From assembly GCA_036493475.1 (NCBI GenBank), contig DASXPS010000011.1, forward strand, positions 1 through 35,716: a DNA stretch of 35,716 nucleotides. The letters are read 5' to 3'. Every line of letters begins with the position of its first letter. The stretch's first letter is position 1. The DNA comes from Sporichthyaceae bacterium. GTDB taxonomy: Bacteria; Actinomycetota; Actinomycetes; Sporichthyales; Sporichthyaceae. Shown here in pieces: positions 6,113 to 23,844 of the stretch. A program made the position numbers and the translations under genes. The notes beneath the pieces are model-generated. The model saw only the letters and a list, made by a program, of their open reading frames with translations, did no database searches and was not told where the DNA came from.

Positions 6113-6121
6113 CGTGCCATC

Positions 6122-6127
6122 AGGAGG
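6122..6127 (+). promoter_or_regulatory. Strong Shine-Dalgarno of the damaged FAD oxidoreductase
   Basis: AGGAGG lies seven bases before the GTG at 6135. It decides the start: a short in-frame extension up to 6114 lacks such a site. The intact signal shows the gene was, and may still be, translated. Confidence 0.75.
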
Positions 6128-6134
6128 ATCACCT

Positions 6135-8057: not shown

Positions 8058-8095
8058 GGGCCTCACCTCGGGGTCGAAATCGGCTGGGGCGGCCG

Positions 8096-8110
8096 TAACA
8101 AACGATGTTA
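8096..8110. promoter_or_regulatory. Operator-like dyad TAACA-N5-TGTTA
   Basis: Perfect 5-base arms around five bases lie in an AT-richer pocket between the minus-strand membrane gene and the plus-strand SDR remnant / epimerase unit. Position and form suit a TetR-type binding site. A related TAACAATGTT is present at 11879-11888. The regulator is not identified. Confidence 0.35.
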
Positions 8111-8150
8111 GGTTATTGACCCTCACCGTCGCTATCACGAAGGAGTGGCA

Positions 8151-8231
8151 GTGACCGGAAGGCCGGCAGGCAAGGTTGCACTGATCACCGCTGCCACGCT
8201 GCCGGTCGACGGTGGGGCCGGCATCAAATGA
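8151..8231 (+). pseudogene. Vestigial short-chain dehydrogenase: N- and C-termini fused in frame
   Basis: An AAGGAG ribosome-binding site (8140-8145) precedes a GTG opening 26 codons. The first half reads like the start of a classical SDR (GKVALIT, the NAD-binding strand), and the second half reads like the usual SDR C-terminus (TLPVDGGAGIK and stop). About 230 residues that normally lie between are absent, and the junction stays in frame. Both ends of an SDR carry a similar [IV]TGA-type coding stretch, so recombination between those short repeats could have made the deletion. That is inference. The stop codon still overlaps the next gene's ATG as ATGA, so the leftover mini-frame may now act as a leader that couples translation of the epimerase. 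It cannot bind substrate as a dehydrogenase. Confidence 0.8.
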
Positions 8232-9328
8232 GGGCGTTGGTCATCGGCGGCAGCGGCGCCAGTGGGCTGCCGGTGCTGACCGGCCTGCTCGAGCGCGGCC
8301 ACGAGGTGGTGATGCTGCACCGCGGCGTGCACGAGCCGGCGGAGCTGCCCGAGGTGGAGCATCTGCACGCTGACCCCCACTTCGCCGAGTCCCTGCAGGA
8401 GGCGATCGCGGACCGCGAATTCGACGTGGTGGTCGCGATGTACGGCCGGGTGGCGACCATCGCCGAGGTGTTCGCCGGTCGCTGCGGCCAACTGGTGAGC
8501 ATCGGTGGAGTGCCCGCGTATCGCGGTTGCCTGCAACCGGAAACCGTGCGTCCGTACGGGATGGCGGTGAACGCCCGGGAGGACGGCCCGCTGTCCGACG
8601 ACGCCGAGTACGTGCCCAAGATCTCCGGGCTGATCCGGGCGGCCGAGCGAGCAGTGCTCGAGCGCGCCTCCGCCGGCGCCTACCGCGGCACCGTGGTCCG
8701 GTACCCGGCCATCTACGGGCCGCGCAACCTGGTGCCCTGGGAGTGGTCGGTGATCCGCCGGGTACTCGACGGCCGCACCCGGATGATCCTGCCCGACAAC
8801 GGCCTGTGGATCATTTCCCGCTGCGCGGCCCGCAACGCCGCCGAGGTGGTGCTGCACATCGTCGAGCAGCCCGACATCGCCAACGGGCAGGCCTACAACG
8901 TCGCCGATGACGACCAGTTCACCGTCCGTCAGTGGGCCGAGACCGTGGCCGGGATCCTGGGTGGCGACCTGGAGTTCATCGGGATCCCCGCCGAGATCGC
9001 GGGCTCCGCGCTGATCGAACTGCTGCCGCCGACCGGCCGGCCACACATGATGCTGGACAACGCCAAGGCCAAGCGCGAGCTCGGCTATCGGCAGGTGGTG
9101 CCGGCCGCGGCGGCACTCGTCGAAGCCGTCGAGTGGCTCAAGGCGAACCCGGTCACCGCGGAGGCCTACCCGCTCTATCCGGGCCGGTTCGACTATGACG
9201 CCGAGGACGCTCTGATCGACGCCTATCTTCGAGCGGTCGAACAGATTCGTGAGGCGACACCAGAGACCCGCCATCCCATGGCACACCCCAAGGCGGCCGC
9301 GAGCGGCCGGGACGAGAGCGGTCGATGA
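8228..9328 (+). CDS. NAD(P)-dependent epimerase/dehydratase-like protein (extended SDR)
   Basis: This 366-residue protein has an N-terminal Rossmann motif of the extended SDR type, RALVIGGSGASGLPVLTGLL, followed by HRGVHEP and a nucleotide-sugar-epimerase-like core (VVRYPAIYGPRN near residue 160, then NVADDDQFTVRQWAETVAG). A typical catalytic YxxxK is not clear at the expected place; YVPKISGLIRAAE (about 122-134) is the nearest. The reaction is therefore uncertain and could be an atypical ketoreductase or isomerase. The ATG overlaps the SDR remnant's stop, and the 3' end overlaps the next gene as ATGA. It is probably expressed from the promoter region at 8058-8150 together with the nitronate monooxygenase-like gene. 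Confidence 0.8.
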   Translation: MRALVIGGSGASGLPVLTGLLERGHEVVMLHRGVHEPAELPEVEHLHADPHFAESLQEAIADREFDVVVAMYGRVATIAEVFAGRCGQLVSIGGVPAYRGCLQPETVRPYGMAVNAREDGPLSDDAEYVPKISGLIRAAERAVLERASAGAYRGTVVRYPAIYGPRNLVPWEWSVIRRVLDGRTRMILPDNGLWIISRCAARNAAEVVLHIVEQPDIANGQAYNVADDDQFTVRQWAETVAGILGGDLEFIGIPAEIAGSALIELLPPTGRPHMMLDNAKAKRELGYRQVVPAAAALVEAVEWLKANPVTAEAYPLYPGRFDYDAEDALIDAYLRAVEQIREATPETRHPMAHPKAAASGRDESGR

Positions 9329-10359
9329 CAGCAGCATGGCGACGGCTGCAGGACCTGGTGGGCGTCGAGTACCCGGTGATGCAGGACGGCATGGGCCCGC
9401 AGCCGTGCACCGCGCTGGCCGCGGCGGTGTCCGAGGCCGGCGGAATGGGCACGTTGAGCAGCCCGAGCATCGTGAACACCTCCGAGACGTTCCTACGGGA
9501 GAACCTGCGCGCGGCCGCGGAGAAGGTGGCGGCGAGCACGGACAAGCCGTTCGGGGTGAACGTGCCGGTGGGCCGGATCGCCTCCGGCGAGCTGTTGCCG
9601 GTCAGTCGCCTCTGCATCGACGAGGCCATCCGGATCAAGCGCGACGGCGGCAAGGCCGGCGATCAACTGACCTGGCTGGTCACCTCGGCCGGGTTCGCCG
9701 GCGAACTCGGGGCGGGCATCCGGGACTCCGGGCTGGTGCACATGCATAAGGTCGGCTCGCTGACCCACGCCCGCAAGGCCGCGGACAGCGGCGTGGACGT
9801 GGTGATCGCTGCCGGGTACGAGATGGGCGGGCATACCCACGTACAGGGCGTGCACACGATGGTGCTCGCGCCGCAGGTGATCGCGGCGCTGGACATCCCG
9901 GTGATCGTGGCGGGCGGGATCTGCGACGGCCGGGGTCTGGCGGCGGCGCTGGCCATGGGCGGTGCCGCGGTGGCCATGGGCACCCGCTTCATCGCGACTC
10001 GCGACCACGAGTGGCACGAGAACTACAAGCAGCGCATCGTGGACGCGCCGGAGTGGGACGACGTGGTCTTCCCCGGCGTCTACGCCCCGATCCGCGGGCT
10101 GCGCAACGCGGGCCAGCGGCACATGGAAAAGCTGCGCCCGACGATGACACCGGAGGAGTTCATCGTCTGGGAGGAGGAGCAGATCCGCGTCTCCCAGCGC
10201 GAGGGCGACGTGCAGAACGGCATCCTGGTCGCCGGTCAGGTGGCCGCCGCCATCCACGACCTACCCTCGGTGGCCGAGGTGATCGACCGCGTCGTCACCG
10301 AGGCCGACGAACTGCTCGCCGCGGCGGCCGACGGGCGGATCAGCCGTAGCGCGCCCTGA
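9325..10359 (+). CDS. Nitronate monooxygenase / 2-nitropropane dioxygenase-like flavin protein
   Basis: This 344-residue FMN-dependent TIM-barrel protein begins with the family pattern LVGVEYPVMQDGMGPQPCTA. It contains AGYEMGGHTHVQGVHT (active-site His in the AGGHxG-like segment), PVIVAGGICDGRGLAAALAM and GGAAVAMGTRFIATRDHEW (phosphate-binding strands near the C-terminal side). Length is typical. Proteins of this type in catabolic clusters can oxidise nitronates or act as enoyl or diene reductases; which applies here is unknown. The start ATG overlaps the epimerase stop. The last 20 bases overlap the convergent acyl-CoA ligase gene, and no terminator hairpin lies between them. Confidence 0.85.
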   Translation: MTAAWRRLQDLVGVEYPVMQDGMGPQPCTALAAAVSEAGGMGTLSSPSIVNTSETFLRENLRAAAEKVAASTDKPFGVNVPVGRIASGELLPVSRLCIDEAIRIKRDGGKAGDQLTWLVTSAGFAGELGAGIRDSGLVHMHKVGSLTHARKAADSGVDVVIAAGYEMGGHTHVQGVHTMVLAPQVIAALDIPVIVAGGICDGRGLAAALAMGGAAVAMGTRFIATRDHEWHENYKQRIVDAPEWDDVVFPGVYAPIRGLRNAGQRHMEKLRPTMTPEEFIVWEEEQIRVSQREGDVQNGILVAGQVAAAIHDLPSVAEVIDRVVTEADELLAAAADGRISRSAP

Positions 10360-11918: not shown

Positions 11919-12500
11919 TTAAGCGGGGGAGAGCACCCCGGTCGCCACGTAGCGCGTCAGCATCCGGCGGACCTGTTCGCGGTCCCCGCCCCGGGGCCGG
12001 GCGCACAGCGCGACGTGGACGAAGGTCAGCCAAAACACCGCCTCGGCGCGGTCGTGGTCGGCGGGGAGATCCCCCCGCTCGGCGATCCGGTCCAGGATCG
12101 GGTCCCAGTACTCGCGCTGTACCTCGGCCACCCGCGCCGACTCCTCGATCACCTCGGCCGCGGTACCGAAGTCGGCCGGGTTGAGCAGGATCTCGATGTA
12201 GTCGGACTTGCGGGCCGAGGCCAGCAGGGCGAGTTCCGCGGCCACCACCAGTTCCGCGGACGGAAGGTCGAGGTCCAGTCCGCGTCGGGCGCGCGCGTTG
12301 ACCCGGCGGGCCTCGTCGAAGATCACCTCGGCGATGAGCACGCTCTTGTTGGTGAAGTAGTTGTAGACCGTCTTGCGGGAGACCCCCGCGGCCGTGGCGA
12401 CGTCGTCCATGGTGGTGCGGCGCAGTCCATAGCGCGCGAAGCAGGCCACGGCGGCCTTGAAGATGCGGCCGCGTTCGGTGGCCAGTTCGACGGTGGTCAT
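11919..12500 (-). CDS. TetR family transcriptional regulator
   Basis: This 193-residue regulator has an N-terminal TetR helix-turn-helix: KAAVACFARYGLRRTTMDDV, then AAGVSRKTVYNYFTNKSVLI at about residues 38-57. The C-terminal ligand-binding region is helical and not diagnostic. The ATG at 12500 follows a minus-strand TAGGCT box (12514-12509) by eight bases, suggesting a short leader. It is divergent from the PEP mobile-domain gene across 75 bases holding nested inverted repeats (12539-12564), so control of that gene and of itself is likely. It may also act on the acyl-CoA ligase downstream. The effector is presumably a small acid or acyl-CoA, which is inference. Confidence 0.9.
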   Translation of the reverse strand: MTTVELATERGRIFKAAVACFARYGLRRTTMDDVATAAGVSRKTVYNYFTNKSVLIAEVIFDEARRVNARARRGLDLDLPSAELVVAAELALLASARKSDYIEILLNPADFGTAAEVIEESARVAEVQREYWDPILDRIAERGDLPADHDRAEAVFWLTFVHVALCARPRGGDREQVRRMLTRYVATGVLSPA

Positions 12501-12538: not shown

Positions 12539-12564
12539 TTACACAATCTACAATATTTGTATAA
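12539..12564. promoter_or_regulatory. Nested inverted repeats overlapping a -10 box (TetR operator candidate)
   Basis: An outer pair, TTACACAA (12539-12546) and TTGTATAA (12557-12564), matches at 7 of 8 positions. An inner pair, TACAA (12549-12553) and TTGTA (12557-12561), is perfect with three bases between. A TATAAC -10-like box (12560-12565) for the PEP-protein gene overlaps the right arms. This sits in the 75-base gap between the divergent TetR and PEP genes, the classic place for a TetR operator. Confidence 0.55.
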
Positions 12565-12575
12565 CGTGCAGCATC

Positions 12576-14153
12576 ATGGTCGGCGACCCGATCGACACCC
12601 ATGGCGGACCCACGACGTTCTGGACGCGGGTCAATGCCGCCGAGGCGCTGCCCGGCGTCATCACCCCACTGACCTGGACGTTCTACGCGCCGACCTCCGA
12701 GCGCAGCGTGCGTACCGCGTTCGCCGAACTCGGTGTGCTGCGCCGCTCGGAGATCACCTGGCCCGCAGACCCGGACCAGCGATTCATCGGCGTCTTCTAC
12801 GGTCGAGCGGCCATCAACCTCGACCAGTTCCGGGCGATGGCCGACCGCAGCCCCGGTCAATCCGGGGATGCGCTGGAACGCGAGTTCTTCGGCACCGTCC
12901 GACCCGGCGTCAGTTCCGCGCCCATGCGCAGCCGCTACCCGTTCGTCGCGACGAAGACCCCGCGGGCCGCGTTCAGCGTGAAGCGTCGCCTGCTCGCGCT
13001 GGAGGCCGAGGCCGACACCTGGTGGCGGCGGGTCGTGACGGACCCCCAGCTGAGCGACCCGGACCGAGCCCGTGCCGTGCTGCGCGAGGCCGCCGACCTG
13101 TACACCCGGGTGATGGTGCCGCACACCATCGGCACGATGCTGACCCCCGCCTTCTTCACCCAACTCGCGGCGTTGGCGACCAAGGCCGGCCAACCCGGCC
13201 TCGAGCTGCGCCTGGTCACCGGGCAGTCGGTGCACGAGACGGCGTGGCTGAACCAGCTGTGGGAGATCGCGCACGGCGGCGGCGACCTCGCTGCGTTCGT
13301 CGCGCAGCACGGCTACCACGGACCCGACGAGGGCGAGCTGTCCGCGCATCCCTGGCGGGAGGACGACCGGCCGCTGCGCGCGATGACAGAACGGTTCCGG
13401 GGCATGCCTGCCGACGCCGCGCCCGCCGCGGTGCAGCGCCGGCGCGCTGTCGAAGCGGGCGAGGCCGAGCGCATCCTGATGGCCGCACTGCCCGCCGCCC
13501 GCCGCCCCGGGGCGCGGCTGCTGCTGGGCATCGTTCGGCACTTCGTGCCGCTGCGGGAAACCGGCCGCTCCACCTTCCTGCACGCCATCGACGGTGCCCG
13601 GCTCGCCGCGCGCAACCTCGGCGCGAGCCTGCAGCACCACGGGGTGCTCAAGGACCCCGCCGACGTGTTCTTCCTGACCATGGACGAGCTGACCGAGGCA
13701 CTGCCGCCAGACGCGGCGGAGTTGGTGGCGGAACGACGAGCCCGGTACGAGGAGTACCGGACGTGCCGGCTGCCCGACGCCTGGACCGGACGCCCCCAGC
13801 CGCTGCCGAGCACTGATGAGCCGTCAGATGCTGCGGCCGCGCTCTCCGGGTTTGCGGTGAGCCCCGGCATTGTCGAGGGCCCGGTGCGCGTGATCTGCGC
13901 AGCGGACGAGCTGGATGCCCTGGAGCCCGGGGAGATCTTGGTCTGCCCACTGACCGACCCCAGTTGGTCGGTGGCTTTCGTGGTCGCCGCCGGCCTGGCG
14001 ATCGACGTGGGCGGTCCGCTGTCCCACGGCGCGATCGTCGCTCGCGAAATGGGCCTTCCCTGTGTCATCAACACCCGGGTCGGCAGCCGGGTCCTGCGCA
14101 CCGGCGACCGGGTGCGCCTGGACGGCGCCGCCGGCACCGTCACCCGGATCTGA
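12576..14153 (+). CDS. PEP-utilising enzyme mobile (phosphohistidine) domain protein lacking an ATP-binding domain, copy 1
   Basis: This 525-residue protein has a C-terminal PEP-utiliser swivelling domain: EILVCPLTDPSWSVAFVVA, then GGPLSHGAIVAREMGLPC with the phosphorylatable His near residue 484. The N-terminal about 430 residues (FWTRVNAAEALPGVITPL onward) resemble the substrate-binding central part of rifampicin phosphotransferase-type proteins. The N-terminal ATP-grasp domain found in PEP synthase and rifampicin phosphotransferase is absent, and no such gene lies in the window. By analogy with phenylphosphate synthase, whose His and ATP domains are on separate subunits, it could phosphorylate a hydroxylated substrate. 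That is inference. ATG 12576 is the first good start after the operator and TATAAC box. The next gene begins nine bases after the stop. Confidence 0.8.
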   Translation: MVGDPIDTHGGPTTFWTRVNAAEALPGVITPLTWTFYAPTSERSVRTAFAELGVLRRSEITWPADPDQRFIGVFYGRAAINLDQFRAMADRSPGQSGDALEREFFGTVRPGVSSAPMRSRYPFVATKTPRAAFSVKRRLLALEAEADTWWRRVVTDPQLSDPDRARAVLREAADLYTRVMVPHTIGTMLTPAFFTQLAALATKAGQPGLELRLVTGQSVHETAWLNQLWEIAHGGGDLAAFVAQHGYHGPDEGELSAHPWREDDRPLRAMTERFRGMPADAAPAAVQRRRAVEAGEAERILMAALPAARRPGARLLLGIVRHFVPLRETGRSTFLHAIDGARLAARNLGASLQHHGVLKDPADVFFLTMDELTEALPPDAAELVAERRARYEEYRTCRLPDAWTGRPQPLPSTDEPSDAAAALSGFAVSPGIVEGPVRVICAADELDALEPGEILVCPLTDPSWSVAFVVAAGLAIDVGGPLSHGAIVAREMGLPCVINTRVGSRVLRTGDRVRLDGAAGTVTRI

Positions 14154-14162
14154 GGAGCAGCG

Positions 14163-15170
14163 ATGGACAACCCGTACGACGTCGACCCGGTCGAGGACTA
14201 CACCCACGTCATCCCCGGCGACGTCGAGCTGTGGAGCGAGAACTATTTCTTCCAGTGCTACGACCCGCGGCACGAGGTCGGCATCTGGACCCACCTGGGT
14301 CGCACCCCGCATGACCCGACGATGTGGCGCGCGCTGCTCACCGTGTTCCTCCGCGACCGCAGCCTGCTGGTCAGCAAGACCTACGGCCGCGGTCCGCAGT
14401 TGCCGGGTGTGTCCGGGCCGAGCAACGGGACGTTGAGTTTCCGCTGCGAAGACCCGCTGCTCACTTGGACGATCAGCGCGGACGCAATGGCCCGTCCGAC
14501 GAACCTCGCTTCGCTGGCCGCCGGCCTGGTTCCCGACGGCGAGGTCGTGCCGGTCTCCTTCGAGTACCGCTTTGACGCGATGACGCCCATGTGGGACCTC
14601 GGCGCCACCGACATGTCCGGGCAGTCCTGGGCGCTCACCCACTACGAACAGGCCGGGCGCATCGCCGGACGGCTGCGCTGCGGGGAGGAGACATGGGAGA
14701 TCACCGGCACCGGCATGCGTGACCACAGCCACGGCCCGCGCAACTTCGCTCACTTCCGTCGCGGGTCGTGGGTGCACGCCGAATTCGGCAGCGGCCGGGC
14801 CTTCGCCGCCCTGCGGATGTGGACCAACGACGACAACGTCGCCCTCAATCGCGCCTTCATCTCCGAGGACGGCAAGCTGCGCGAGGTCACGCCGATCGAC
14901 ATGCCGACACTGGAGACAGCGCTGTCGGACCCGCGCTCGATGACCGTCCGCATCGACGACGGCGGCCGCGAGACCACGATCGAGGTCGAGGTCATCAACG
15001 CCAAGACCATGACGCTGGTCGAACCCAACGAGATCGTGTTCGGCGTCGACCGCAGCGACCCGCGGATCAAGGTCATCAACGAGGCGATCGTGCGCTGCCG
15101 CTGGGACGGCGAGGAGGGCTACGGCCTGTGCGAGCGCAGCCGCCGGATCGAGGATCTGAGCGGGAACTGA
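14163..15170 (+). CDS. DUF7064/DUF7065-like protein (AttH/CrtC-like fold), function unknown
   Basis: This 335-residue soluble protein has no signal peptide and follows a GAGGAG ribosome-binding site at 14154-14158. It resembles the two-barrel AttH/CrtC-like proteins (hydroxyneurosporene synthase relatives, annotated as DUF7064/7065). Diagnostic is GTGMRDHSHGPRNFAHFRRG (about residues 181-200), matching the family GMRDHS-GPR signature, preceded by the aromatic-rich SENYFFQCYDPRHEVGIWTH. CrtC relatives hydrate isoprenoid double bonds, so a lipid or terpenoid ligand is plausible, but no catalytic proof can be read. It sits between the PEP mobile-domain protein and a substrate-binding lipoprotein with spacings of only a few bases. 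The three probably form one operon. Confidence 0.7.
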   Translation: MDNPYDVDPVEDYTHVIPGDVELWSENYFFQCYDPRHEVGIWTHLGRTPHDPTMWRALLTVFLRDRSLLVSKTYGRGPQLPGVSGPSNGTLSFRCEDPLLTWTISADAMARPTNLASLAAGLVPDGEVVPVSFEYRFDAMTPMWDLGATDMSGQSWALTHYEQAGRIAGRLRCGEETWEITGTGMRDHSHGPRNFAHFRRGSWVHAEFGSGRAFAALRMWTNDDNVALNRAFISEDGKLREVTPIDMPTLETALSDPRSMTVRIDDGGRETTIEVEVINAKTMTLVEPNEIVFGVDRSDPRIKVINEAIVRCRWDGEEGYGLCERSRRIEDLSGN

Positions 15171-15171
15171 C

Positions 15172-16674
15172 GTGGCGCCTCGCAGCATGTCCGCCGGCCG
15201 GGTGCTGATCGCTGCCGTGCTGTCCGTGGCGCTGCTCGCCGGGTGCGGCGGCTCACGCGCCGATCACGCGGCCATCGTGGCGGTCGGCAACGGGTATGCG
15301 GCACCGGACGTGCAGCGGGAGATCCAGGCTGCGGCCGACCTCGCGGCAGCGAAGGTCGCGGCCGAGGCGGTCACACCCGTGTCGGGTGCGGTGGTCCCGC
15401 CGGTCGCCGGCGCACCGGCAATCACCGCGCCGCTCAGTGCTGCCTCTGTGGCCGACAAAGGCGGCGACGCGCCGACCCCGGGCACAATCACCGCGCCGAG
15501 CACCGGGACAACAGCCGGTGCCACGGCATGCCCGCAGCAGTTGTCCCCGGTGGTGCTCGGGCAGACGCTGGCCACCTCCGGCCTCGTGGGCGCCACCATC
15601 GGCGGGCTGCGCGGCGGGTTGGCGGTCTGGGCGAAGGACATCAACGCCCGCGGCGGCCTGCAGTGCCACCCGGTGCAGCTCATTCAACTTGACGATGCGT
15701 CAGATCCGGCCCGGGTCACCGCGAACTGGAACTCGATGATCCATGACCGCGGCGCGGTCGCGATGGTCGGTGCCGGTGTGCCGATCGCGATCGCCGCGCT
15801 GCGCACCGCGGCCGAGCGGGACAAGGTGCCGGTGGTCGGCGGCGACGTCACCGCCGAGGACTGGGTGCACAGCCCCTACCTGTTCCCGACCGGTGGCGCC
15901 CCGCTCACCTCCTACGACGGGGGCGTGATCGAGGCCGCCAAGCAGGCTCGGGGCCCGCGCAAGGCCGGGCTGTTCTACTGCGTCGAGGCGTCGATCTGCA
16001 CCGGGTTGAAGAACAACTACCCGCACAGCGCGCAGCGGGCGGGCGCCGCGCTCGGTCCGATCCAGGCGGTGTCGCTGACCCAGCCGGACTACACCTCCGA
16101 GTGTCAGCTGATGAAGGCCGCCGGGGTCAACACGCTGTTCCTCGGCCTGGACGGATCGGCCAGCATCCGGGCCGTCCGCTCCTGCGCGTCGCTGAACTAC
16201 TTCCCGACGATCTCCATGGGCGCCATCGGCCTGTCCGCGGCCGCCTCCGCCGACGCCGGCCTGCGGCGCAATCAGACCTTCCTGGGCAGCGGCGTGGTGC
16301 CGTACACCACCACGGACACGCCCGGCATCCAGTCCTTCCATGTCGCCACGGCGCGCTACGCCCCGTCCGCCCCGGAGGATCAGCAGACGCTGCTCGGCTG
16401 GGCGGCGGGCAAGCTGCTCGAGGCCGCGCTGGCCAAGGTCTCCGCCCGGGCCCGGGGCGGCGCCATCACCACCCAACTGGTCCTCGACGGCCTGTGGCAG
16501 CTGAAGAACGAGACGTTGGACGGGCTGAGCCCCGGCGCCACCTTCACCAGGGGCGCCCCGGCCAAGGCGATCGACTGCTACTACGGGTTGCGGCTGGACG
16601 AGCACGGCTTCGGTGCGGTCAACGGCAGCAAACCGGTCTGCTTCGACGCCGACGGTCACTTCCAGCGGAAGTGA
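15172..16674 (+). CDS. Substrate-binding lipoprotein, branched-chain amino-acid ABC transporter type
   Basis: This 500-residue precursor has a lipoprotein signal ending LLAGCGG, with the lipidated Cys near residue 25. A low-complexity Ala/Pro/Thr linker (about 45-120) is followed by a type I periplasmic-binding fold (VVLGQTLATSGLVGATIGGL, then VAMVGAGVPIAIAALRTAAE and VPVVGGDVTAEDW). Such proteins capture small acids, amino acids or aromatic or sterol-derived compounds at the outer face of the membrane. No permease or ATPase genes are beside it, so it must work with a transporter encoded elsewhere or act as a sensor. GTG 15172 follows the previous stop by one base; ATG 15187 would still leave an intact signal. 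Its end overlaps the convergent Smr-like gene by 19 bases. Confidence 0.85.
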   Translation: MAPRSMSAGRVLIAAVLSVALLAGCGGSRADHAAIVAVGNGYAAPDVQREIQAAADLAAAKVAAEAVTPVSGAVVPPVAGAPAITAPLSAASVADKGGDAPTPGTITAPSTGTTAGATACPQQLSPVVLGQTLATSGLVGATIGGLRGGLAVWAKDINARGGLQCHPVQLIQLDDASDPARVTANWNSMIHDRGAVAMVGAGVPIAIAALRTAAERDKVPVVGGDVTAEDWVHSPYLFPTGGAPLTSYDGGVIEAAKQARGPRKAGLFYCVEASICTGLKNNYPHSAQRAGAALGPIQAVSLTQPDYTSECQLMKAAGVNTLFLGLDGSASIRAVRSCASLNYFPTISMGAIGLSAAASADAGLRRNQTFLGSGVVPYTTTDTPGIQSFHVATARYAPSAPEDQQTLLGWAAGKLLEAALAKVSARARGGAITTQLVLDGLWQLKNETLDGLSPGATFTRGAPAKAIDCYYGLRLDEHGFGAVNGSKPVCFDADGHFQRK

Positions 16675-16910
16675 ACGAAAACCCGGCCGAAGTTGTCGGA
16701 GTCCTTCTCCACCCGGTGATACAGCGCCTTGATCTCTTTCTGATCCAGGAACCGCAGCACCCGCTTCTTCAGCGCACCGCTGCCCTTGCCGGGGATGATC
16801 TCGACCAGCGGCGCCTTCTTGGCCACGGCCTCGTCGATGATCGCGCGCAGCGCGCGGTCGATGTCCACGCCGCGGTTGTAGATGTCGTGCAGGTCGAGCT
16901 TGAGCTTCAT
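16656..16910 (-). CDS. Small Smr-domain protein
   Basis: This 84-residue protein is essentially one Smr (small MutS-related) domain. It has the N-terminal LDLHD signature, corresponding to the LDLHG motif of the family, and the central IPGKGSGALKKRVLRFL, matching the GKG-G-L loop. Smr domains bind or nick nucleic acids, and stand-alone bacterial versions are implicated in RNA cleavage. The first motif has Asp where Gly is common. The ATG at 16910 is clear and no other start fits. It is convergent and overlapping with the lipoprotein gene and starts a lone minus-strand unit. The upstream gap 16911-17098 is shared with the next plus-strand gene. Confidence 0.8.
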   Translation of the reverse strand: MKLKLDLHDIYNRGVDIDRALRAIIDEAVAKKAPLVEIIPGKGSGALKKRVLRFLDQKEIKALYHRVEKDSDNFGRVFVHFRWK

Positions 16911-17098
16911 GCCCCCAGCCTGGTCCCTGAACGGGCCGGCGAGGGACTATGTGACTGAAGTGATTTAAATAAACCTGTGTGACACACGTGTTGCAACGTG
17001 AGTTGACCGCCGATAGGGGTCAGGATTGTTGGTGGGCCGCGGCCAAGGGAGTGCGCCGCCGTCCATGAACACGTTCGCAACGAAGACGGGGGTCAGGG
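16911..17098. promoter_or_regulatory. Divergent promoter region between Smr gene and secreted LPATGG protein
   Basis: This 188-base gap has an AT-rich tract (GATTTAAATAAACC, about 16961-16974). It also holds the palindromic octamer GTTGCAAC (16990-16997) embedded in CACGTGTTGCAACGTG, and a TTGACC hexamer at 17003-17008 that could serve as a -35 element. No convincing -10 follows at the usual distance. GTTGCAAC recurs at 23907-23914. Confidence 0.35.
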
Positions 17099-17920
17099 AT
17101 GAGATGTCACGCTCGCCGAGCGGCCATGGTTGCTGCGGCTTCTGCGGTCGCCACGATGATGCTGATCGCAGGTGGGGCGCAGCGCGCCCAGGCGGCCACC
17201 AGTAGCCCCACCGCGGGGACCGGATGCCTGCGGCAGGGCCCGATGCTCGACGCCAACTGCGGACCGATCCCAGAGGCGGCCGCACCGGTTCATCGCGCTG
17301 ACGCCCCGCGCGCTGCGCACCGGCCCGCGGCCTCGGTGGAGAAGCCCGCGGCGCGTCCGGCGGCGGACCCGGTGCGCGCAGCCGGCCACCCGGCAGTCAA
17401 CGACCATTCGTCCACCGCGCCCGCGTCGACGCGCGCTGCCGCGCCCGAAGCCCGCCCGGTGACCGCGGAGCACGACAGCAAGGTCGCGGCGGCGTCGGCA
17501 CATTCGCGCGCCCCCGCCTCGACGACCCATCGGCCCGCGCAGCCGGCTGCCGCGCCGGCCGCGCCCGCGCAGGCGCAGGCCGGCCCCGCGGTCGCGAAAC
17601 CCGACCAACCTGTCCGCGCCATGGGACAGCCGCAGGCGCCGGCTCACCCGCAGGCGCCGGTCCATCCGCAGGCGCCGGTCCATCCGCGGGCTGCGGCCGC
17701 CCCGCAGGCTCCCGCTCACCCGCAAGCTCCAGCTCGTCCGCAACCCGCGGCGGCCCCGCAGGAGCCAGTGCATACGCAAGCCGTCGCTCGTCCGCAAGCT
17801 CCGGCTCAACCGCAGCACGCGGCGCATCCGCGGGCGGCCGCGCATCCGAGAGCCTCGGCACAGCACGCGGCGCCATCCCGAGCCGAGGGCAGTAAGCGGC
17901 TCCCCGCCACCGGCGGCTGA
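17099..17920 (+). CDS. Secreted Ala/Pro/His-rich protein ending in LPATGG
   Basis: This 273-residue protein has a Sec-type signal peptide (MRCHARRAAMVAAASAVATM then a hydrophobic run; likely cleavage after AQA near residue 33). The mature part is low-complexity, rich in Ala, Pro and His, with PQAPVH/PQAPAH units. At DNA level three 18-base repeats run 17631-17684. Two Cys near residues 43 and 54 may pair. It ends SKRLPATGG immediately before the stop. LPATG is a sortase recognition motif, but the hydrophobic segment and basic tail that normally follow are absent. Covalent anchoring by the usual route is therefore doubtful. The protein could be released, bound by its basic/His-rich region, or be a degenerate sorting substrate. 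The ATG is preceded by a GGGGGTCAGGG purine-rich site. I recognise no named family. Confidence 0.7.
   Translation: MRCHARRAAMVAAASAVATMMLIAGGAQRAQAATSSPTAGTGCLRQGPMLDANCGPIPEAAAPVHRADAPRAAHRPAASVEKPAARPAADPVRAAGHPAVNDHSSTAPASTRAAAPEARPVTAEHDSKVAAASAHSRAPASTTHRPAQPAAAPAAPAQAQAGPAVAKPDQPVRAMGQPQAPAHPQAPVHPQAPVHPRAAAAPQAPAHPQAPARPQPAAAPQEPVHTQAVARPQAPAQPQHAAHPRAAAHPRASAQHAAPSRAEGSKRLPATGG
17631..17684 (+). repeat. Three 18-base tandem repeats within the secreted protein gene
   Basis: Units at 17631-17648, 17649-17666 and 17667-17684 begin CGCAGGCGCCGG. The second and third are identical and the first differs at a few bases. Each encodes PQAP plus two residues including His. It is an expanded coding repeat, not a CRISPR: there are no unique spacers. 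Confidence 0.85.
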
Positions 17921-17931
17921 TCGGAACCGAG

Positions 17932-17967
17932 AAAGCGGTGGGGTGCGGTTGCGCACCCCACCGCTTT
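17932..17967 (+). terminator. Intrinsic terminator, perfect 16-base-pair hairpin
   Basis: The left arm AAAGCGGTGGGGTGCG (17932-17947), a GTTG loop and the exactly complementary right arm (17952-17967) end in TTTT, and the hairpin begins 12 bases after the LPATGG gene's stop. It is the clearest terminator in the window and works symmetrically in sequence. It insulates the second PEP-protein promoter just downstream. Confidence 0.9.
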
Positions 17968-17984
17968 TCGTTGCGGCAGAACGG

Positions 17985-18012
17985 TTGTCGCCTGATGTAC
18001 ACACCGTATACA
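17985..18012 (+). promoter_or_regulatory. Promoter with overlapping dyad before PEP-protein copy 2
   Basis: TTGTCG (17985-17990), 16 bases, and TATACA (18007-18012) form a good -35/-10 pair. The dyad TGTACAC-ACC-GTATACA (17996-18012, 6 of 7 arm positions matching) covers the -10 box, as expected for a repressor site. The TetR gene at 19651 is the local candidate regulator. Confidence 0.55.
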
Positions 18013-18032
18013 TTGTGCCGCGGGAGGTCGCC

Positions 18033-19631
18033 GTGACCGAGTTGGACCTGCACACCCCGAACCCCATGCACTGCGCCTCCGGGCCGGACGATGTCTGGTC
18101 GACGGTGAACACCCGGGAAAACTACCCGGGGGTGATGAGCCCGCTGGCGGCCAGCCTGTGGCTGCCGCTGTGCGACCGCGCGGTGGCCGGGTCGTTTGCC
18201 GACATCGGGGTGGTGGCCACCAACCGCATCGACGCGGAGGCCGCACGCAAGCCGCCGTGCTCGGCGGTGTTCTACGGCCGCTACACCGCGGGCATCAGCT
18301 ACTTCCGGCGGATGAGTGAGCTCATCCCCGGCAACTCCGGCGCCTCGTTCGAGGAGCAGTACTTCGCCTCCGCGCGGGTGCGGGACGCCCCGCGCTCCCG
18401 CCGCCGCCACCCGGTGATCGCCGTCAAGGCAGCGGTGACCACAGCCCGACTGCGCCGCCGCTTTCACGCCACCGCCGAACGCACCGATCACTGGTGGCGG
18501 TTCGCCACCTCACCGCCCGGTGCCGCCCGGCCCGGCGCGGTACAACTGCGCGACGCGCTGGAGCACCTCGAGGAGGTGATGCGGGTCCACATGGTGGTCT
18601 GCTTCGTGGCACAGGGCGTGTTCGACGCGTTGGGCAAGCTCGCCGCGAGCGTCGAGCGGCCGGGCCTGCATCTGCAGCTGGCCACCGGCTATGGGCGAAT
18701 GGCCGAACTGCAACTGGTCGCCACCCTGGACAAGGTCGCGCATGGCGAGGCCACGATGGCGGAATTCCTTGCCGAGTATGGCTTTCGCTGCGCCGGCGAG
18801 ATCGAACTTTCCCGGCCCAGCTGGCGCGAGGCCCCGGAACTCATCGAACGGCTGGTCGCCAAATACCGCGGCGCGCAACGGCCCGACCCCGTCGCGCAGG
18901 CCCGGCAACGGGCCGCGGTGCGTGAGGCCGCGGAGGCTGAATTGCTGGCCGCGTTGCCCCGCGCGAAACGGCCGGTCGCGCACCTGCTGCTGCGCCTGGC
19001 GCGCACCTTCATCCCGATGCGGGAAGAGGGGAAGGCCGCGCTGGCCAGAGGATTCGACGGCAGCCGGGTGGCGGCACGCGCCCGAGGACGCGAGCTGGTG
19101 GCCGCCGGGGTCATCGACGCCGAGGACGACGTGTTCTACCTGTCCATCGACGAACTGCGCGGCGACGTGCCTGCCGACGTTCGCGATGTGGTGGCCGCCC
19201 GACGGGCGCTGCGTAGCGCCTATGAAAAATTTGACCTGCCCGATCATTGGGCCGGGCAACCCGAGCCGATCCCGGTGGTGACCGACACCGACGCCCGCGC
19301 CGACTCGGTCACCGGCACCGCCGCCGCGCACGGTGTGATCGAGGGCAGGGCCCGGGTGCTGTCCAACGCCGAGCAATGCGACGAACTGGAACCCGACGAG
19401 ATCCTGGTCTGCCACACCACCGACCCGTCCTGGGCCTCGGCCTTCCACCTCGCCGCCGGCGTGGTCATCGACGTGGGGTCGATCTCCTCGCACGGCGCGA
19501 TCGTGGCCAGGGAGATGGGCCTGCCCTGCGTGATCGGCACCGGCAACGGCACCGCGGTGCTGCGCACCGGCGACCTGCTCCGGGTCGACGGGGGCGCGGG
19601 CAGGGTCACCGTGCTGGAACCCGCGTTGTGA
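18033..19631 (+). CDS. PEP-utilising enzyme mobile (phosphohistidine) domain protein lacking an ATP-binding domain, copy 2
   Basis: This 532-residue paralogue of the protein at 12576 has the same design. The N-terminal region begins VWSTVNTRENYPGVMSPL, followed by the helical substrate-binding-like part with VFYGRYTAGISYFRRMSEL. The C-terminal swivelling domain reads EILVCHTTDPSWASAFHLAA and SSHGAIVAREMGLPCVIGTG with the active His near residue 487. No ATP-grasp domain is present. Overall similarity to copy 1 is clear but moderate, so this is not a recent duplication. GTG 18033 is chosen because GGGAGG (18022-18027) lies five bases ahead; the open frame extends upstream to 17943 through promoter and terminator DNA and should not be used. 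The stop codon lies inside a 13-base palindrome (19629-19641), and the TetR gene follows 19 bases later. Confidence 0.8.
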   Translation: MTELDLHTPNPMHCASGPDDVWSTVNTRENYPGVMSPLAASLWLPLCDRAVAGSFADIGVVATNRIDAEAARKPPCSAVFYGRYTAGISYFRRMSELIPGNSGASFEEQYFASARVRDAPRSRRRHPVIAVKAAVTTARLRRRFHATAERTDHWWRFATSPPGAARPGAVQLRDALEHLEEVMRVHMVVCFVAQGVFDALGKLAASVERPGLHLQLATGYGRMAELQLVATLDKVAHGEATMAEFLAEYGFRCAGEIELSRPSWREAPELIERLVAKYRGAQRPDPVAQARQRAAVREAAEAELLAALPRAKRPVAHLLLRLARTFIPMREEGKAALARGFDGSRVAARARGRELVAAGVIDAEDDVFYLSIDELRGDVPADVRDVVAARRALRSAYEKFDLPDHWAGQPEPIPVVTDTDARADSVTGTAAAHGVIEGRARVLSNAEQCDELEPDEILVCHTTDPSWASAFHLAAGVVIDVGSISSHGAIVAREMGLPCVIGTGNGTAVLRTGDLLRVDGGAGRVTVLEPAL

Positions 19632-19650: not shown

Positions 19651-20277
19651 GTGACCGCCGAGGCCCGCGGCTATCGCAGCTTCCTGCGGCTGGACGCGAT
19701 CGTCGCCGAGGCTCGGCGCATCGCCGACGCCGACGGCCTGGCCGCGGTCTCCATGCGCAGTCTGGCCCGGGCGCTGGACTGCACGCCGCGGGCGCTGTAT
19801 CGCCACGTGGCGGGCAAGGAGGAGGTGCTGGAACTGCTCGCCGACGCGGCGTTGGGGGAGATCCCGCTGCCCCTGATGGACGGCGACCCGCACGCGGCGA
19901 TCGTCGAGTTCTACCTCGCCATGCGCGAGCTGCTGGTCGCCTCGCCCGCAATCGCCGAGATCATCGCGCAGCTCCCGGTGGCCGGGCCCAACTTCCGCGC
20001 GCACGGCGAGGCCGTGGTGGCGCGGCTGCTGTCCGCCGGCCTCGCCCCGCAGGACGCCGTCGAGGCGATGATCGCGCTGGGCCAGTTCACCATCGGCGCG
20101 TCCATGCCCGGTACCGGACAACGCCTGCACGAGGCCTACCGGGCGTTGGAGGAGATCGACGCCGGTACCCCGCTCGGCCGGGTGCGGGAGCACTTCGTCC
20201 GGGACTCCGCCGCGGGGCATTTCTCCTCCGCGTTGCGCCGTCTGCTCGGGGGCTATCGACCGAGGAATCCGAGCTGA
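19651..20277 (+). CDS. TetR family transcriptional regulator (TetR/AcrR, C-terminal domain typical of TetR_C)
   Basis: The 208-residue regulator has an N-terminal HTH around residues 15-60 (AIVAEARRIADADGLAAVSM, then SLARALDCTPRALYRHVAGK) and a mostly helical ligand-binding region (AIVEFYLAMRELLVASPAIA, IALGQFTIGASMPGTG). The recognition helix TPRALYRHVAGKEEVL is like that of TetR itself. The start is GTG 19651, 19 bases after the PEP-protein stop, with only a weak AGGA site, so it may depend on translation of the upstream gene. Cotranscription with copy 2 and a dyad over that gene's promoter point to autoregulation. It could also control the phosphatase genes downstream, which is inference. 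Confidence 0.88.
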   Translation: MTAEARGYRSFLRLDAIVAEARRIADADGLAAVSMRSLARALDCTPRALYRHVAGKEEVLELLADAALGEIPLPLMDGDPHAAIVEFYLAMRELLVASPAIAEIIAQLPVAGPNFRAHGEAVVARLLSAGLAPQDAVEAMIALGQFTIGASMPGTGQRLHEAYRALEEIDAGTPLGRVREHFVRDSAAGHFSSALRRLLGGYRPRNPS

Positions 20278-20370: not shown

Positions 20371-22071
20371 ATGAGCGACGGGGGGCCGATCAATCCGCCG
20401 GGGGAGACCCCGGATGTCGGGGTCCCGGCGGAGCTCGCCGCGCACATGACGGTGCCCGAGCAGCACGAGTGGGTTACCCGGTTCCTGCGGGAGCGACCGG
20501 TCAGCCGACGCAGCGCGCTGACGCTCGCGGCCGGGGCGCTGACCGCGCTCGGCGCCGGGGCGGTGCTCGCCGAATGGGGCGGCCGGGCGGTCGGGTCCAC
20601 GCCGCCGCCGTTCGTCGGGCGCCGGCTGTCCTTCGGCAACGACCCGCGTACCCAGATGGCACTCGCCGTCGAGTTGACCCAACCCCCGCGGGACGGGCTG
20701 GTGCTCGACCTCGGCGTCGACCACACCTACGGCCGCGCGCTGCCGGTGGAGATCCGGCACCTCCTCAGCTCGGTGCCACAGAACGACGGCACGATTCGCG
20801 CGGCCGAGCAGTGGTACGTGCACGCCCTGGCCGAAGGCCTGGAACCCGGTCGGGCATACCACTACCGCTTCCGGATGCCCGGCGGCGCGGTTACCCCCAA
20901 CGCGGTGTTCCACACCGCCCCGGCCGGCCGGGAACAGTTCAGCTTCACCGCGTTCGGCGACCAGGGCGTGGACGAGATCGAGGGCGTACCCCATTGGTTC
21001 AGCAACCGCTACAAGTACGCGGACACCCGCCGGGCCGCGAACCCGGCGCTCACCCTGACCCGGATGGTCGCCGCGCGCAAACCCGCGTTCCACCTGTTGG
21101 CCGGGGACATTTGTTACCCCGGCTCGGACGGCCGCCCGGTGCGCAACAACGCCCCGACGAACCCGCTGCGCGGTTTCGACAACTACGACCCCACGATCTG
21201 GACCCGGTACTTCGCGACCATCGGTCGCAGCGCCGCGACCACCCCGTGGATGTTCGCCACCGGCAACCACGAGGTGGAAGCGCTCTACGACGACAACACG
21301 TCGGGCGGCGCCACGCACGGCTACGGCGGACATGCGGCGCGGTTGGACCTGCCGACCAACGGCCCGCGTGGGTGCCCGTCGGTCTACTCCTTCCGTTACG
21401 GCAACGTGGGTTTCGTCAGCATGGACACCAACGACCTGACCCACGAGAGCCGGGCCACCGTCGGGTACAGCCAGGGCGCGCAGCCCGCGTGGTTGCGCGG
21501 CACGCTGTATCAGCTACGGGCGGATCCGCAGATCGACTTCATCGTGGTGTTCTTCCACCACTGCGCGTACTCCACCGCCATCGGGCACGGCTCGGACGAC
21601 GGGGTGCGCTCGCAGGTGGCCCCGATGTTCGACGAGTTCTCCGTCGATCTGGCCGTGCAGGCGCACAACCACTGCTGGGAACGGACCGATCCGATCCGGG
21701 GCGGGCATCCTACGGTGACCGCGCCGAACGGCTCCACCGTGCGGCCGGCGACCGACGGGACCACGTACATCTGCGCGGGCTCCGGCGGTCGGGGTCGGTC
21801 GGCCTGGCCGATGGGCATCACCGACCGCTATCCCGGCTTGGTCGGGGTCGACAGCGGAACCGAGGTGACGTCCACCCTGCGCCTGGTCGGCGCGGCGACC
21901 GTGCCGGAGACGGTGGGCTGGTCCCGGGCCCGGTACTCCGGGTACGCGATGCTCGCGGTTGATGTGGTGCCCGGTGCGCCCGGTTTCGAGTCGACCATGA
22001 CGGTCCGCACCATCAGCGACCGCGGTGAGCGGTTGGACACGGTGACGCTTGTTCGCCGCGCATCCTCCTGA
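20371..22071 (+). CDS. Tat-exported purple acid phosphatase-like metallophosphoesterase, copy 1
   Basis: This 566-residue precursor has a twin-arginine signal, SRRSALTLAAGALTALGAGA (about residues 45-64). It continues with a fibronectin-III-like purple acid phosphatase N-domain (LSFGNDPRTQMALAVEL on) and a calcineurin-type phosphoesterase core. The five metal-binding blocks of purple acid phosphatases are visible: GDQG, GDICY, GNHE, VFFHH and AHNH (Gly to Ala in the last). The Tyr of GDxxY supports a purple-type Fe-M centre. It would be secreted folded and hydrolyse phosphate esters outside the membrane. ATG 20371 is preceded by GGAG with a short spacer. The 93-base gap after the TetR gene probably carries a promoter, but none stands out; I see no clear PHO box. 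A tandem paralogue follows 33 bases after the stop. Confidence 0.88.
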   Translation: MSDGGPINPPGETPDVGVPAELAAHMTVPEQHEWVTRFLRERPVSRRSALTLAAGALTALGAGAVLAEWGGRAVGSTPPPFVGRRLSFGNDPRTQMALAVELTQPPRDGLVLDLGVDHTYGRALPVEIRHLLSSVPQNDGTIRAAEQWYVHALAEGLEPGRAYHYRFRMPGGAVTPNAVFHTAPAGREQFSFTAFGDQGVDEIEGVPHWFSNRYKYADTRRAANPALTLTRMVAARKPAFHLLAGDICYPGSDGRPVRNNAPTNPLRGFDNYDPTIWTRYFATIGRSAATTPWMFATGNHEVEALYDDNTSGGATHGYGGHAARLDLPTNGPRGCPSVYSFRYGNVGFVSMDTNDLTHESRATVGYSQGAQPAWLRGTLYQLRADPQIDFIVVFFHHCAYSTAIGHGSDDGVRSQVAPMFDEFSVDLAVQAHNHCWERTDPIRGGHPTVTAPNGSTVRPATDGTTYICAGSGGRGRSAWPMGITDRYPGLVGVDSGTEVTSTLRLVGAATVPETVGWSRARYSGYAMLAVDVVPGAPGFESTMTVRTISDRGERLDTVTLVRRASS

Positions 22072-22104
22072 ATTTTCCCACGTAAACGGGTCCTCGGTCG
22101 CAAG

Positions 22105-23844
22105 ATGGACTCGATGAAGAGGAGCCAGGGGCGGCACGCGAGGAACCCGCGCGGACAGACGCCCGACGTCGGCGTCCCGCCGGAGCTCGCCGATAACCTG
22201 ACGGTTGCCGAACAGCACGACTGGATTCGGCGGTTCCTTTCCGAACGACCGGTCAGCCGGCGCGCCGCGCTGCGCGGCGCCGGGGTGGTGACCGCATTGG
22301 GTATGGCGCCCTGGCTCGCCGCGAACCGTGATTCGTTCGGCGGCCACGGGTTGCCGCCGTTTCTCGGGCGACGACTCTCCTTCGGGTCGGACCCGCGCAC
22401 GCAGATGGCCATGGCCGCCGAGTTGACCGCTCCGCCCCGGGCGGCGGTGCTGGTCGACCTCGGCACCGACACCGGCTACGGCCACACCCTGACCGCCGAG
22501 GTGCGGCACTTGGTCAGCGCGGTGCCGCAACGGGACGGGTCCATCCGGACCGCGGAACAGTTCTTCGTGCACGCCCTCGCCGATGACCTGGAACCCAGCG
22601 TGGCCTACCACTACCGGTTCCGGCTGCCCGGCGGGGGCGTCACGCCGGATGCCGTGTTCAGCACCGCGCCGGCCACTGCGGGGCGGTTCAGCTTCACCGC
22701 CTTTGGTGACCAGGGCGTGGACGACAACGGCGGCGTGCCGGCGATTTTCGCCAACAGATACGCGATCCAGGACACCCGACGGACCGCGCACCCGGCCGCG
22801 TCACTGATTCGACTGGTCGCGGCCCGCCGGCCCACATTCCATGTGCTGGCCGGCGACATCTGTTACCCCGGCGCGGACGGGGAGCCGGTCCGGAACAACG
22901 CGCCCGGAAAAGCCGGCGCGGGCTTCGACAACTACGACCCGACGGTGTGGACCCGCTATTTCGCCGGCATCGAGATCAGTTCCGCCACCACGCCCTGGAT
23001 GTTCGGGACCGGCAACCACGATGTGGAAGCGCTCTACGACGACAACCGGGCCGGTGGGGCCACCCACGGTTACGGCGGGCACGCCGCCCGCCTGGACCTG
23101 CCGACGAACGGGCCGCGTGGCTGCCCGTCGGTGTATTCGTTCCGGTACGGCAATGTCGGATTTCTCAGCCTGGACAGCAACGACCTGACCTTCGAGACCC
23201 GGGCCAATGCCGGCTACAGCCGGGGCACCCAGGTCGCCTGGGCGCGCCACACCCTCGCCGCCTTCCGCAAGGACCCGTTGGTGGATTTCATCGTGGTCTT
23301 CTTTCACCACTGCGCCTACGCCACCGCCAGAGGCCACGGTTCGGATGACGGGGTGCGCACCCGATTGGCCCCGCTGTTCGACGAGTTCTCCGTCGACCTC
23401 GCGGTGCAGGCCCACAACCACAGTTGGGAACGGACCGACCCGATCCGGGCCGGCCGATGCACAGTGGCCGCGCCGAACGGGGCGACCGTGCGGCCGTTGA
23501 CGGACGGGACCACCTACATCTGCGCGGGTTCTGGAGGTCGGGGGAGGTCCTCCTGGCCCGACGGCACGGCCGATCGTTATCCCGGCCAGGTCAGTGCCGA
23601 CAGCGCGGCACCGGTGAAAGCGAGCCTGCGGATGAAGGGCGGCGAGGCCGTTCCGGAGACGGTGCCCTGGTCCCGGGCTCGCTACGGGGACTACGCGATG
23701 CTCGCCGTCGACGTGGTGCCCGCAGTGCCCGGCTTCGAGTCCACCATGACGATCCGCACCATCAGCGACCGCGGCGAACTGCTCGACACCATCACCCTCG
23801 CCCGGACCGCCCGGCTTCTGGGCATCGGGGTCCCGCTGCTGTAG
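22105..23844 (+). CDS. Tat-exported purple acid phosphatase-like metallophosphoesterase, copy 2
   Basis: This 579-residue precursor is a tandem duplicate of the preceding gene. Long blocks such as GGHAARLDLPTNGPRGCPSV are identical at protein level, and by eye about three quarters of positions match. It has a twin-arginine signal, SRRAALRGAGVVTALG, and the same metal blocks GDQG, GDICY, GNHD, VFFHH and AHNH. The second residue after GNH differs between copies (Glu/Asp), and the N-terminus and C-terminus differ most (here ending ARLLGIGVPLL). ATG 22105 and ATG 22114 are both possible; the second has GAAGAGG-like purines too close to help. The hairpin at 23977-24001 may terminate the transcript. 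Copies may differ in substrate or regulation; the sequence does not say. Confidence 0.88.
   Translation: MDSMKRSQGRHARNPRGQTPDVGVPPELADNLTVAEQHDWIRRFLSERPVSRRAALRGAGVVTALGMAPWLAANRDSFGGHGLPPFLGRRLSFGSDPRTQMAMAAELTAPPRAAVLVDLGTDTGYGHTLTAEVRHLVSAVPQRDGSIRTAEQFFVHALADDLEPSVAYHYRFRLPGGGVTPDAVFSTAPATAGRFSFTAFGDQGVDDNGGVPAIFANRYAIQDTRRTAHPAASLIRLVAARRPTFHVLAGDICYPGADGEPVRNNAPGKAGAGFDNYDPTVWTRYFAGIEISSATTPWMFGTGNHDVEALYDDNRAGGATHGYGGHAARLDLPTNGPRGCPSVYSFRYGNVGFLSLDSNDLTFETRANAGYSRGTQVAWARHTLAAFRKDPLVDFIVVFFHHCAYATARGHGSDDGVRTRLAPLFDEFSVDLAVQAHNHSWERTDPIRAGRCTVAAPNGATVRPLTDGTTYICAGSGGRGRSSWPDGTADRYPGQVSADSAAPVKASLRMKGGEAVPETVPWSRARYGDYAMLAVDVVPAVPGFESTMTIRTISDRGELLDTITLARTARLLGIGVPLL

Follow-up and report, generated by a model that had tools for sequence, protein, structure and literature searches.

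Phosphotransferases split over two proteins have been characterised in the two-component dikinases HpeHI, CreHI and PpsAB (PMC12167813), and in Sterolibacterium a 25-hydroxysteroid kinase (25-HSK) and a 25-phosphosteroid lyase (25-PSL) together perform an ATP-dependent dehydration (PMC8449060, PMC11061730). Here we analyse two genes, H1 and H2, on a 35,716-nucleotide stretch of DNA from a Sporichthyaceae bacterium (contig DASXPS010000011.1 of assembly GCA_036493475.1). This stretch, referred to as the window, comprises an entire contig of the 4.27-Mb draft assembly, and negative results on the gene neighbourhood are bounded by the contig ends. An earlier note on this DNA had assigned the two proteins to an unstudied system that phosphorylates hydroxylated hydrophobic compounds; given the characterised dikinases, the word ‘unstudied’ is only partly true. 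With moderate confidence, we propose that H1 and H2 are the acceptor subunits of split phosphotransferases of the rifampicin phosphotransferase (RPH) type, that they are fed by a separate truncated pyruvate phosphate dikinase (tPPDK), and that a lyase follows H1.

H1 and H2 fold like the substrate-binding and swivel half of RPH

H1 (12576-14153, + strand) and H2 (18033-19631, + strand, GTG start codon) are full-length paralogous open reading frames (ORFs) of 525 and 532 aa that share 40% identity over 522 residues (E=1e-115). The sole Pfam match in either protein is the phosphoenolpyruvate (PEP)-utilizers mobile domain PF00391 at the C-terminus (E 2.4e-20 in H1 and E 3e-23 in H2); the same search detected neither the PPDK_N/ATP-grasp domain (PF01326) nor the PEP/pyruvate-binding barrel of PEP synthase and PPDK. 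The H1 swivel is encoded at approximately 13923-14135 and its catalytic His is His484. By phmmer, a match to Listeria RPH runs across the C-terminus of the RIF domain and the swivel (E=1e-28). The AlphaFold2 model of H1 (pLDDT 95.1) superimposes on residues 318-866 of RPH (5fbu) with Z 29.8 and 3.2 Å over 462 residues (VIA-align), leaving the ATP-grasp domain of RPH (residues 1-314) without a counterpart, and the top six Foldseek matches of this model are all RPH. The NCBIfam equivalog model for RPH scores 131.5 bits and does not reach its cut-off of 999, while the NCBIfam models for RedH and PigC match the shared domains with E values of about 1e-33 to 1e-44. H1 and H2 have the fold of the substrate-binding and phosphohistidine (swivel) half of RPH, minus the ATP-grasp domain. 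This is how the earlier note had described them, and Pfam, phmmer and the structural comparison with RPH that it had suggested all agree.

The functional roles of the acceptor-site residues of RPH have been described (PMC4844700). R666, E667, K670 and H825 of RPH correspond to R327, E328, R331 and H484 of H1; H2 has the same set of residues, with K at the K670 position. We surveyed these positions in 50 homologues of the H1/H2 clade that are without ATP-grasp. The catalytic His, whose loss in most homologues the earlier note had named as counter-evidence, is invariant (50/50). The position matching K670 always holds Lys or Arg (50/50), that matching R666 holds Arg in 38/50 and that matching E667 holds Glu in 22/50. 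The invariant His and the largely kept R666 and K670 equivalents support the earlier view of H1 and H2 as phosphotransferases of hydroxylated hydrophobic compounds.

A truncated PPDK is the candidate phosphate donor

The candidate partner is a tPPDK, that is, an ATP-grasp domain with its own swivel and no PEP barrel, the architecture of the VadK/Rv1127c family. A scan of 84,980 genomes with H as the sole query returned 80 loci. Within ~10 kb of the H gene, a tPPDK gene (PPDK_N plus PEP-utilizers, no barrel) is present in 10/18 loci of the stand-alone clade versus 0/37 fused loci (p=1.5e-6); the adjacency in L171, L172, L198 and L199 was left out of this unbiased test because these loci had been fetched for their hits. 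A broader test found a tPPDK near 13/40 loci classed as having no ATP domain versus 0/36 fused loci (p=9e-5), and is conservative since some of the former loci are truly fused. Among 346 genomes of the class, H is found in 13, a tPPDK of the same type as the host's C32 copy in 16 and both in 7, against 0.6 expected (p=1.5e-7; like our other co-occurrence statistics, without correction for phylogeny). In G001, a genome of the same genus, 2.6 kb separate a tPPDK gene from the H2 orthologue, and in G034 a tPPDK gene directly precedes H.

The host genome's own tPPDK (C32:70569-71996) is encoded between two ATP-binding cassette (ABC) ATPase genes. It contains only PF01326 and PF00391, matches the NCBIfam family NF004531 with 697 bits versus a cut-off of 456, and has the equivalents of K22, R92, E323, Q335, R337 and the His all present. 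NF004531 also takes in the linked partner proteins, and in nearly all of these partners the ATP-site residues and the His are intact. Mycobacterium tuberculosis Rv1127c/VadK was assigned to the same family by its domain make-up and length. A second candidate from the host genome, the C17 tPPDK, is an unlikely donor, with the ATP-site Gln replaced by Gly and Lys by Arg.

In most tPPDK-H pairs a winged-helix-like protein of ~200 aa is encoded beside the tPPDK or fused to its C-terminus (L198 5613-6212, L075 7550-8179, L080 10215-10829, L104 14722-16896 and L039 8523-10931), and the same small protein adjoins the C184-type tPPDK of G002; it appears to be a third component beside the tPPDK. In Gordonia and Nocardioides, genes of the PF13350 tyrosine-phosphatase family are located near H (L075 2748-3440 and L080 17864-18553) and possibly encode phosphate removers.

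Paralogues, fused relatives and the source of ATP

PF00391 occurs at 15 places in the host genome: H1, H2, five further stand-alone H proteins, two H proteins fused to a short-chain dehydrogenase/reductase domain (SDR-H) of the Rv2047c type, one fused ATP-grasp-RIF-binding domain (RD)-swivel enzyme (C7:8928-11480), PPDK-type proteins and one divergent protein. Judged by ORF architecture, 0/15 are PtsI, and enzyme I of the phosphotransferase system (PTS) was set aside as a donor. G001-G004, which belong to the same family, hold 11 to 22 H-type matches each at E 1e-15, and most other families 0-5. In a quickly built tree of 104 rows with SH-aLRT support only, fused proteins (C7/G001:C78, L079 and G047/G339) nest in the stand-alone clade at several places, and the Rv2047c-type SDR-H proteins form a clade separate from H1 and H2. 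Since fused members lie inside the stand-alone clade, the two forms replaced one another, in keeping with a single chemistry whose ATP domain can be part of the same protein or come in trans. The earlier note would have been contradicted by an ATP-grasp domain fused in close homologues with the same neighbourhood; fused close homologues do exist, C7 being in the same genome and the same clade, but their neighbourhood differs.

C7 presents a challenge to the tPPDK as donor. Its shared part is 39% identical to H1 and it is the only RPH-type ATP-grasp enzyme of the host genome, so that its ATP-grasp domain could phosphorylate the swivels of H1 and H2 in trans, with the tPPDK being unrelated; G002 and G003, with one fused RPH-like gene each and no C32-type tPPDK, would suit such an arrangement. 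We nevertheless consider it unlikely, because G004 (94% complete), with its 12 H-type matches, yielded no RPH-type ATP-grasp at 1e-10, and because orphan H genes are adjoined by tPPDK genes and not by fused genes.

The earlier note had expected an ATP-domain partner encoded elsewhere. This holds in that a partner gene co-occurs with H and is often linked to it, while the candidate is a tPPDK with its own swivel rather than ATP-grasp alone. A lone ATP-grasp gene of the HpeI/PpsB type was not found in this genome or family: using the C7 ATP-grasp as the query against 60 genomes, the host family yielded only long fused frames or nothing, one weaker G001 match in a 417-aa frame aside. The window contains no ATP-grasp gene, in agreement, within the contig ends, with the earlier statement that none is encoded nearby.

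It is more doubtful still that H1 and H2 need no ATP and act as phosphotransferases between small molecules. HpeH alone slowly does so, passing phosphate from 4-phosphoacetophenone to acetovanillone (PMC12167813), and the catalytic residues of the H proteins are all kept though there is no ATP domain. However, the rate of HpeH alone is very low, and both the recurrent pairing with an ATP-grasp protein and the recurrent fused forms favour ATP input.

A 25-PSL homologue follows H1

The gene after H1 (14163-15170, + strand) encodes a DUF7065/DUF7064 protein identified by Pfam, structural modelling and profile search as a 25-PSL/AttH homologue. The best Foldseek matches of its model (pLDDT 91) are 25-PSL structures (top 9g4c, E 7.5e-13); with VIA-align the model reaches Z 25.3 to 9fzn, tied with 26.1 to AttH 2ich. 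A profile search retrieved 9fzn at E 3.6e-11 with the RDxSxGxR motif in common, and R186 is invariant and D187, G191 and R193 are nearly so. By fold and by profile, the protein is a homologue of 25-PSL.

Members of the DUF7064 family adjoin H in many loci and adjoin fused RPH-like enzymes in 19/34 loci, mostly in Bacteroidota. As this adjacency does not distinguish orphan from fused loci, it bears on the chemistry and not on the ATP partner. Importer genes are likewise recurrent: a substrate-binding protein (SBP) gene follows the H1 lyase gene, a permease-ABC-SBP-DUF7064-H order is found at C83, and ABC ATPase genes surround the C32 tPPDK. The SBP after H1 is a Peripla_BP_6 lipoprotein of a branched-chain-type ABC importer (15172-16674, + strand; PF13458, E 2.2e-36). 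The association of importer genes, H and a lyase homologue suggests uptake, phosphorylation and elimination. That the H proteins instead phosphorylate a substrate to prepare it for condensation or ligation, the role proposed for PigC and RedH in prodigiosin synthesis, is improbable: the NCBIfam models of both ligases do match the shared domains, but we saw no second amine or pyrrole pathway near H1 and H2, and the neighbour is a phospholyase homologue.

Related arrangements were seen at other loci. In L093, L096, L098, L106, L107, L109, L111, L113-L116, L136, L143 and L149, which come from Bacteroidota and other groups, a distance of ~1.7-2.9 kb separates a fused RPH-like kinase gene from a 25-PSL-like gene (DUF7065/7064), a widely occurring kinase-lyase pair for which we found no description. 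Some loci have APH/ecdysteroid-kinase-like genes near H, which, judging from the description of 25-HSK as a phosphotransferase, we read as being of the 25-HSK type. In L075, a gene next to H (3443-4408) gives weak matches to both the DUF7064 family and the PEP-utilizers swivel, and is possibly an odd fusion or a remnant.

Mycobacterial tPPDK and SDR-H genes

Among 118 mycobacterial genomes, NF004531 is present in 62, a Rv2047c-like SDR-H gene in 53 and both in 51 (odds ratio 125, Fisher p=7e-20, not corrected for phylogeny); four of the NF004531 matches (G373, G374, G382 and G431) fall in long frames of 921-992 aa that possibly encode full PPDK. The two genes are linked within 5-20 kb in at least seven genomes: G360, G361, G376, G394, G403, G425 (twice) and G443. 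In two 3.3-Mb genomes the genes are damaged: in G411:C1 both the tPPDK and the Rv2047c-like gene have stops or are fragmented, and in G446:C1 the Rv2047c-like gene is broken and the tPPDK gene is intact.

VadK autophosphorylates on His422 and has been presented as a methylcitrate-cycle regulator for which no small-molecule acceptor is given (PMC13400623). In a transposon screen, rv1127c, rv2047c and pks12 had a common requirement in high mycobactin (PMC7058343); this is suggestive only, since many genes have the same requirement. A literature search that covered papers outside subscription found no described tPPDK-H pair.

Proposed mechanism

Our computations show the fold, the missing domain, the catalytic residues, the pairing of genes and the homology to a lyase, and the mechanism that we build upon them is as follows. 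A tPPDK, in the host most likely C32:70569-71996, would move phosphate from ATP onto its own swivel His and, as the presumed donor, would supply it to the H protein, either from His to His or by direct transfer. The swivel His of the H protein (His484 in H1), together with the Arg/Lys of the acceptor site, would then phosphorylate the hydroxyl group of a compound that we predict to be hydrophobic, and that probably enters through the branched-chain-type ABC importer and/or receives its hydroxyl from a P450. In the case of H1, the adjacent DUF7064 protein would eliminate the phosphate to leave an alkene, resulting in a net ATP-dependent dehydration.

Several observations weigh against this mechanism. 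There is no tPPDK gene inside the window, and the C32 copy is unlinked to H1 and H2. Eight of the 18 orphan loci are without a visible tPPDK, some of them on short contigs, and G002-G004 have 12-22 H-type matches each yet only the more distant C184-type tPPDK. The statistics of co-occurrence, as noted, are not corrected for phylogeny. The R666 equivalent is lost in 12/50 homologues and the E667 equivalent is Gly in 21/50, and H2 has no lyase directly adjoining it. Finally, VadK pulled down methylcitrate-cycle enzymes, with Rv2047c lying outside the five partners in main-text Table 1 (PMC13400623).

A broader scheme is possible rather than probable: in Actinobacteria, one VadK-type tPPDK may serve as a PTS-like hub outside sugar transport, charging its swivel His from ATP and feeding many interchangeable acceptor kinases, often with a phospholyase after them to complete the ATP-dependent dehydration. 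The acceptors would be H proteins and SDR-H proteins such as Rv2047c, each with its own hydrophobic alcohol. If this were the case, Rv2047c would be the missing VadK acceptor in M. tuberculosis. The split RPH-type mechanism itself turns an orphan half-enzyme family, with 10-22 matches per genome among these Sporichthyaceae, into a system open to testing, in which both the ATP donor and the follow-on enzyme are named, and it puts forward an acceptor for the VadK phosphohistidine and a function for Rv2047c. It also suggests that dehydration by a kinase and a phospholyase, familiar from the anaerobic degradation of sterols, occurs widely and employs two unrelated types of kinase.

Regulators and gene neighbourhood

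A TetR-family regulator (TetR1, 11922-12500, - strand; PF00440, E 3.9e-15) is divergent from H1, and both G001 and G003 have an 81-83% identical orthologue at the corresponding place. Between TetR1 and H1 lies the dyad TTACACA-N12-TGTATAA (12539-12564), with conserved arms and a variable spacer: in the orthologues it is a perfect inverted repeat with 9-nt arms in G001 and 10-nt arms in G003, and the spacer differs. This is probably a TetR operator that overlaps the H1 promoter. The imperfect dyad ATGTACAC-ACC-GTATACAT before H2 (17995-18013) is weak and partly conserved in G001, and is a possible operator. A second TetR-family gene (TetR2, 19651-20277, + strand; PF00440/PF02909) is directly 3′ of H2, and is found in the same place after H2 in G001. 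The earlier claim that each copy has its own TetR and promoter dyad therefore holds for H1, while TetR2 is downstream of H2 and the H2 dyad is imperfect. The gene order that the note had given, with copy 1 followed by the DUF7064/7065 protein and the Peripla_BP_6 lipoprotein and copy 2 by a TetR, is confirmed by Pfam and the ORFs. The lipoprotein gene is kept 3′ of H1-DUF7064 in G001 and G003, and in G001 the TetR1-H1-DUF7064-SBP and H2-TetR2 blocks are both conserved at 67-83% identity (82% for the H2 orthologue). A TetR gene for each copy and a window without an ATP partner would suit the earlier note's alternative that H1 and H2 are non-catalytic binding or sensing proteins, which we retain as a rival but consider very improbable in view of the invariant His, the SHGAIVARE motif, the acceptor-site residues, the lyase and transporter neighbours and the catalytic fused sisters.

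Upstream (1337-10359, + strand) are genes for a homogentisate-dioxygenase-like cupin, two P450s, FAD oxidoreductases, an SDR/epimerase and a nitronate monooxygenase-like protein, which we list as context and not as demonstrated members of the system. The second FAD oxidoreductase gene (6114-7370) runs in one frame to ~6880 and in another on to ~7366, and is a frameshifted or partly deleted gene, or reflects an assembly error. After TetR2, 20371-23844 encodes a tandem metallophosphoesterase-like pair with twin-Arg-like N-termini and with PF00149 in the first only; the pair was set aside as CreD analogues given these Tat-like signals.

Comparison with known systems

Like the two-component dikinases HpeHI, CreHI and PpsAB, H1 and H2 have an RPH-like substrate-binding plus swivel acceptor subunit with the ATP domain placed on another protein, and the phosphorylation of small hydrophobic hydroxyl compounds by those dikinases (PMC12167813) is what we predict for H1 and H2. 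The partner of the dikinases, however, consists of ATP-grasp alone and its gene adjoins that of the H subunit, whereas the candidate partner here is a tPPDK with its own swivel, one for many H proteins. HpeHI-type pairs of G030, G032 and G053 match the H profile at 253-524 only, that is, over its second half, a comparison with HpeH by type and not with the characterised sequence. With the Rv2047c-type SDR-H proteins, H1 and H2 share the substrate-binding and swivel half without ATP-grasp and the co-occurrence with tPPDK, but not the N-terminal epimerase/SDR domain or the clade. The C32 tPPDK and the linked partners resemble VadK/Rv1127c in belonging to NF004531 and in having ATP-grasp and swivel without a PEP barrel. 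The kinase-then-lyase logic of 25-HSK and 25-PSL of Sterolibacterium denitrificans is shared through the DUF7064 protein as a 25-PSL homologue; unlike an H protein, which would take its place, 25-HSK yields ADP via a ternary complex and has no swivel His. The likeness to RPH extends to the fold and active-site residues of 318-866, but the ATP-grasp domain is absent and the score is far below the family cut-off. The H1/H2 system, then, is not RPH, and would work like the two-component dikinases without the ATP-grasp-only partner that defines them.

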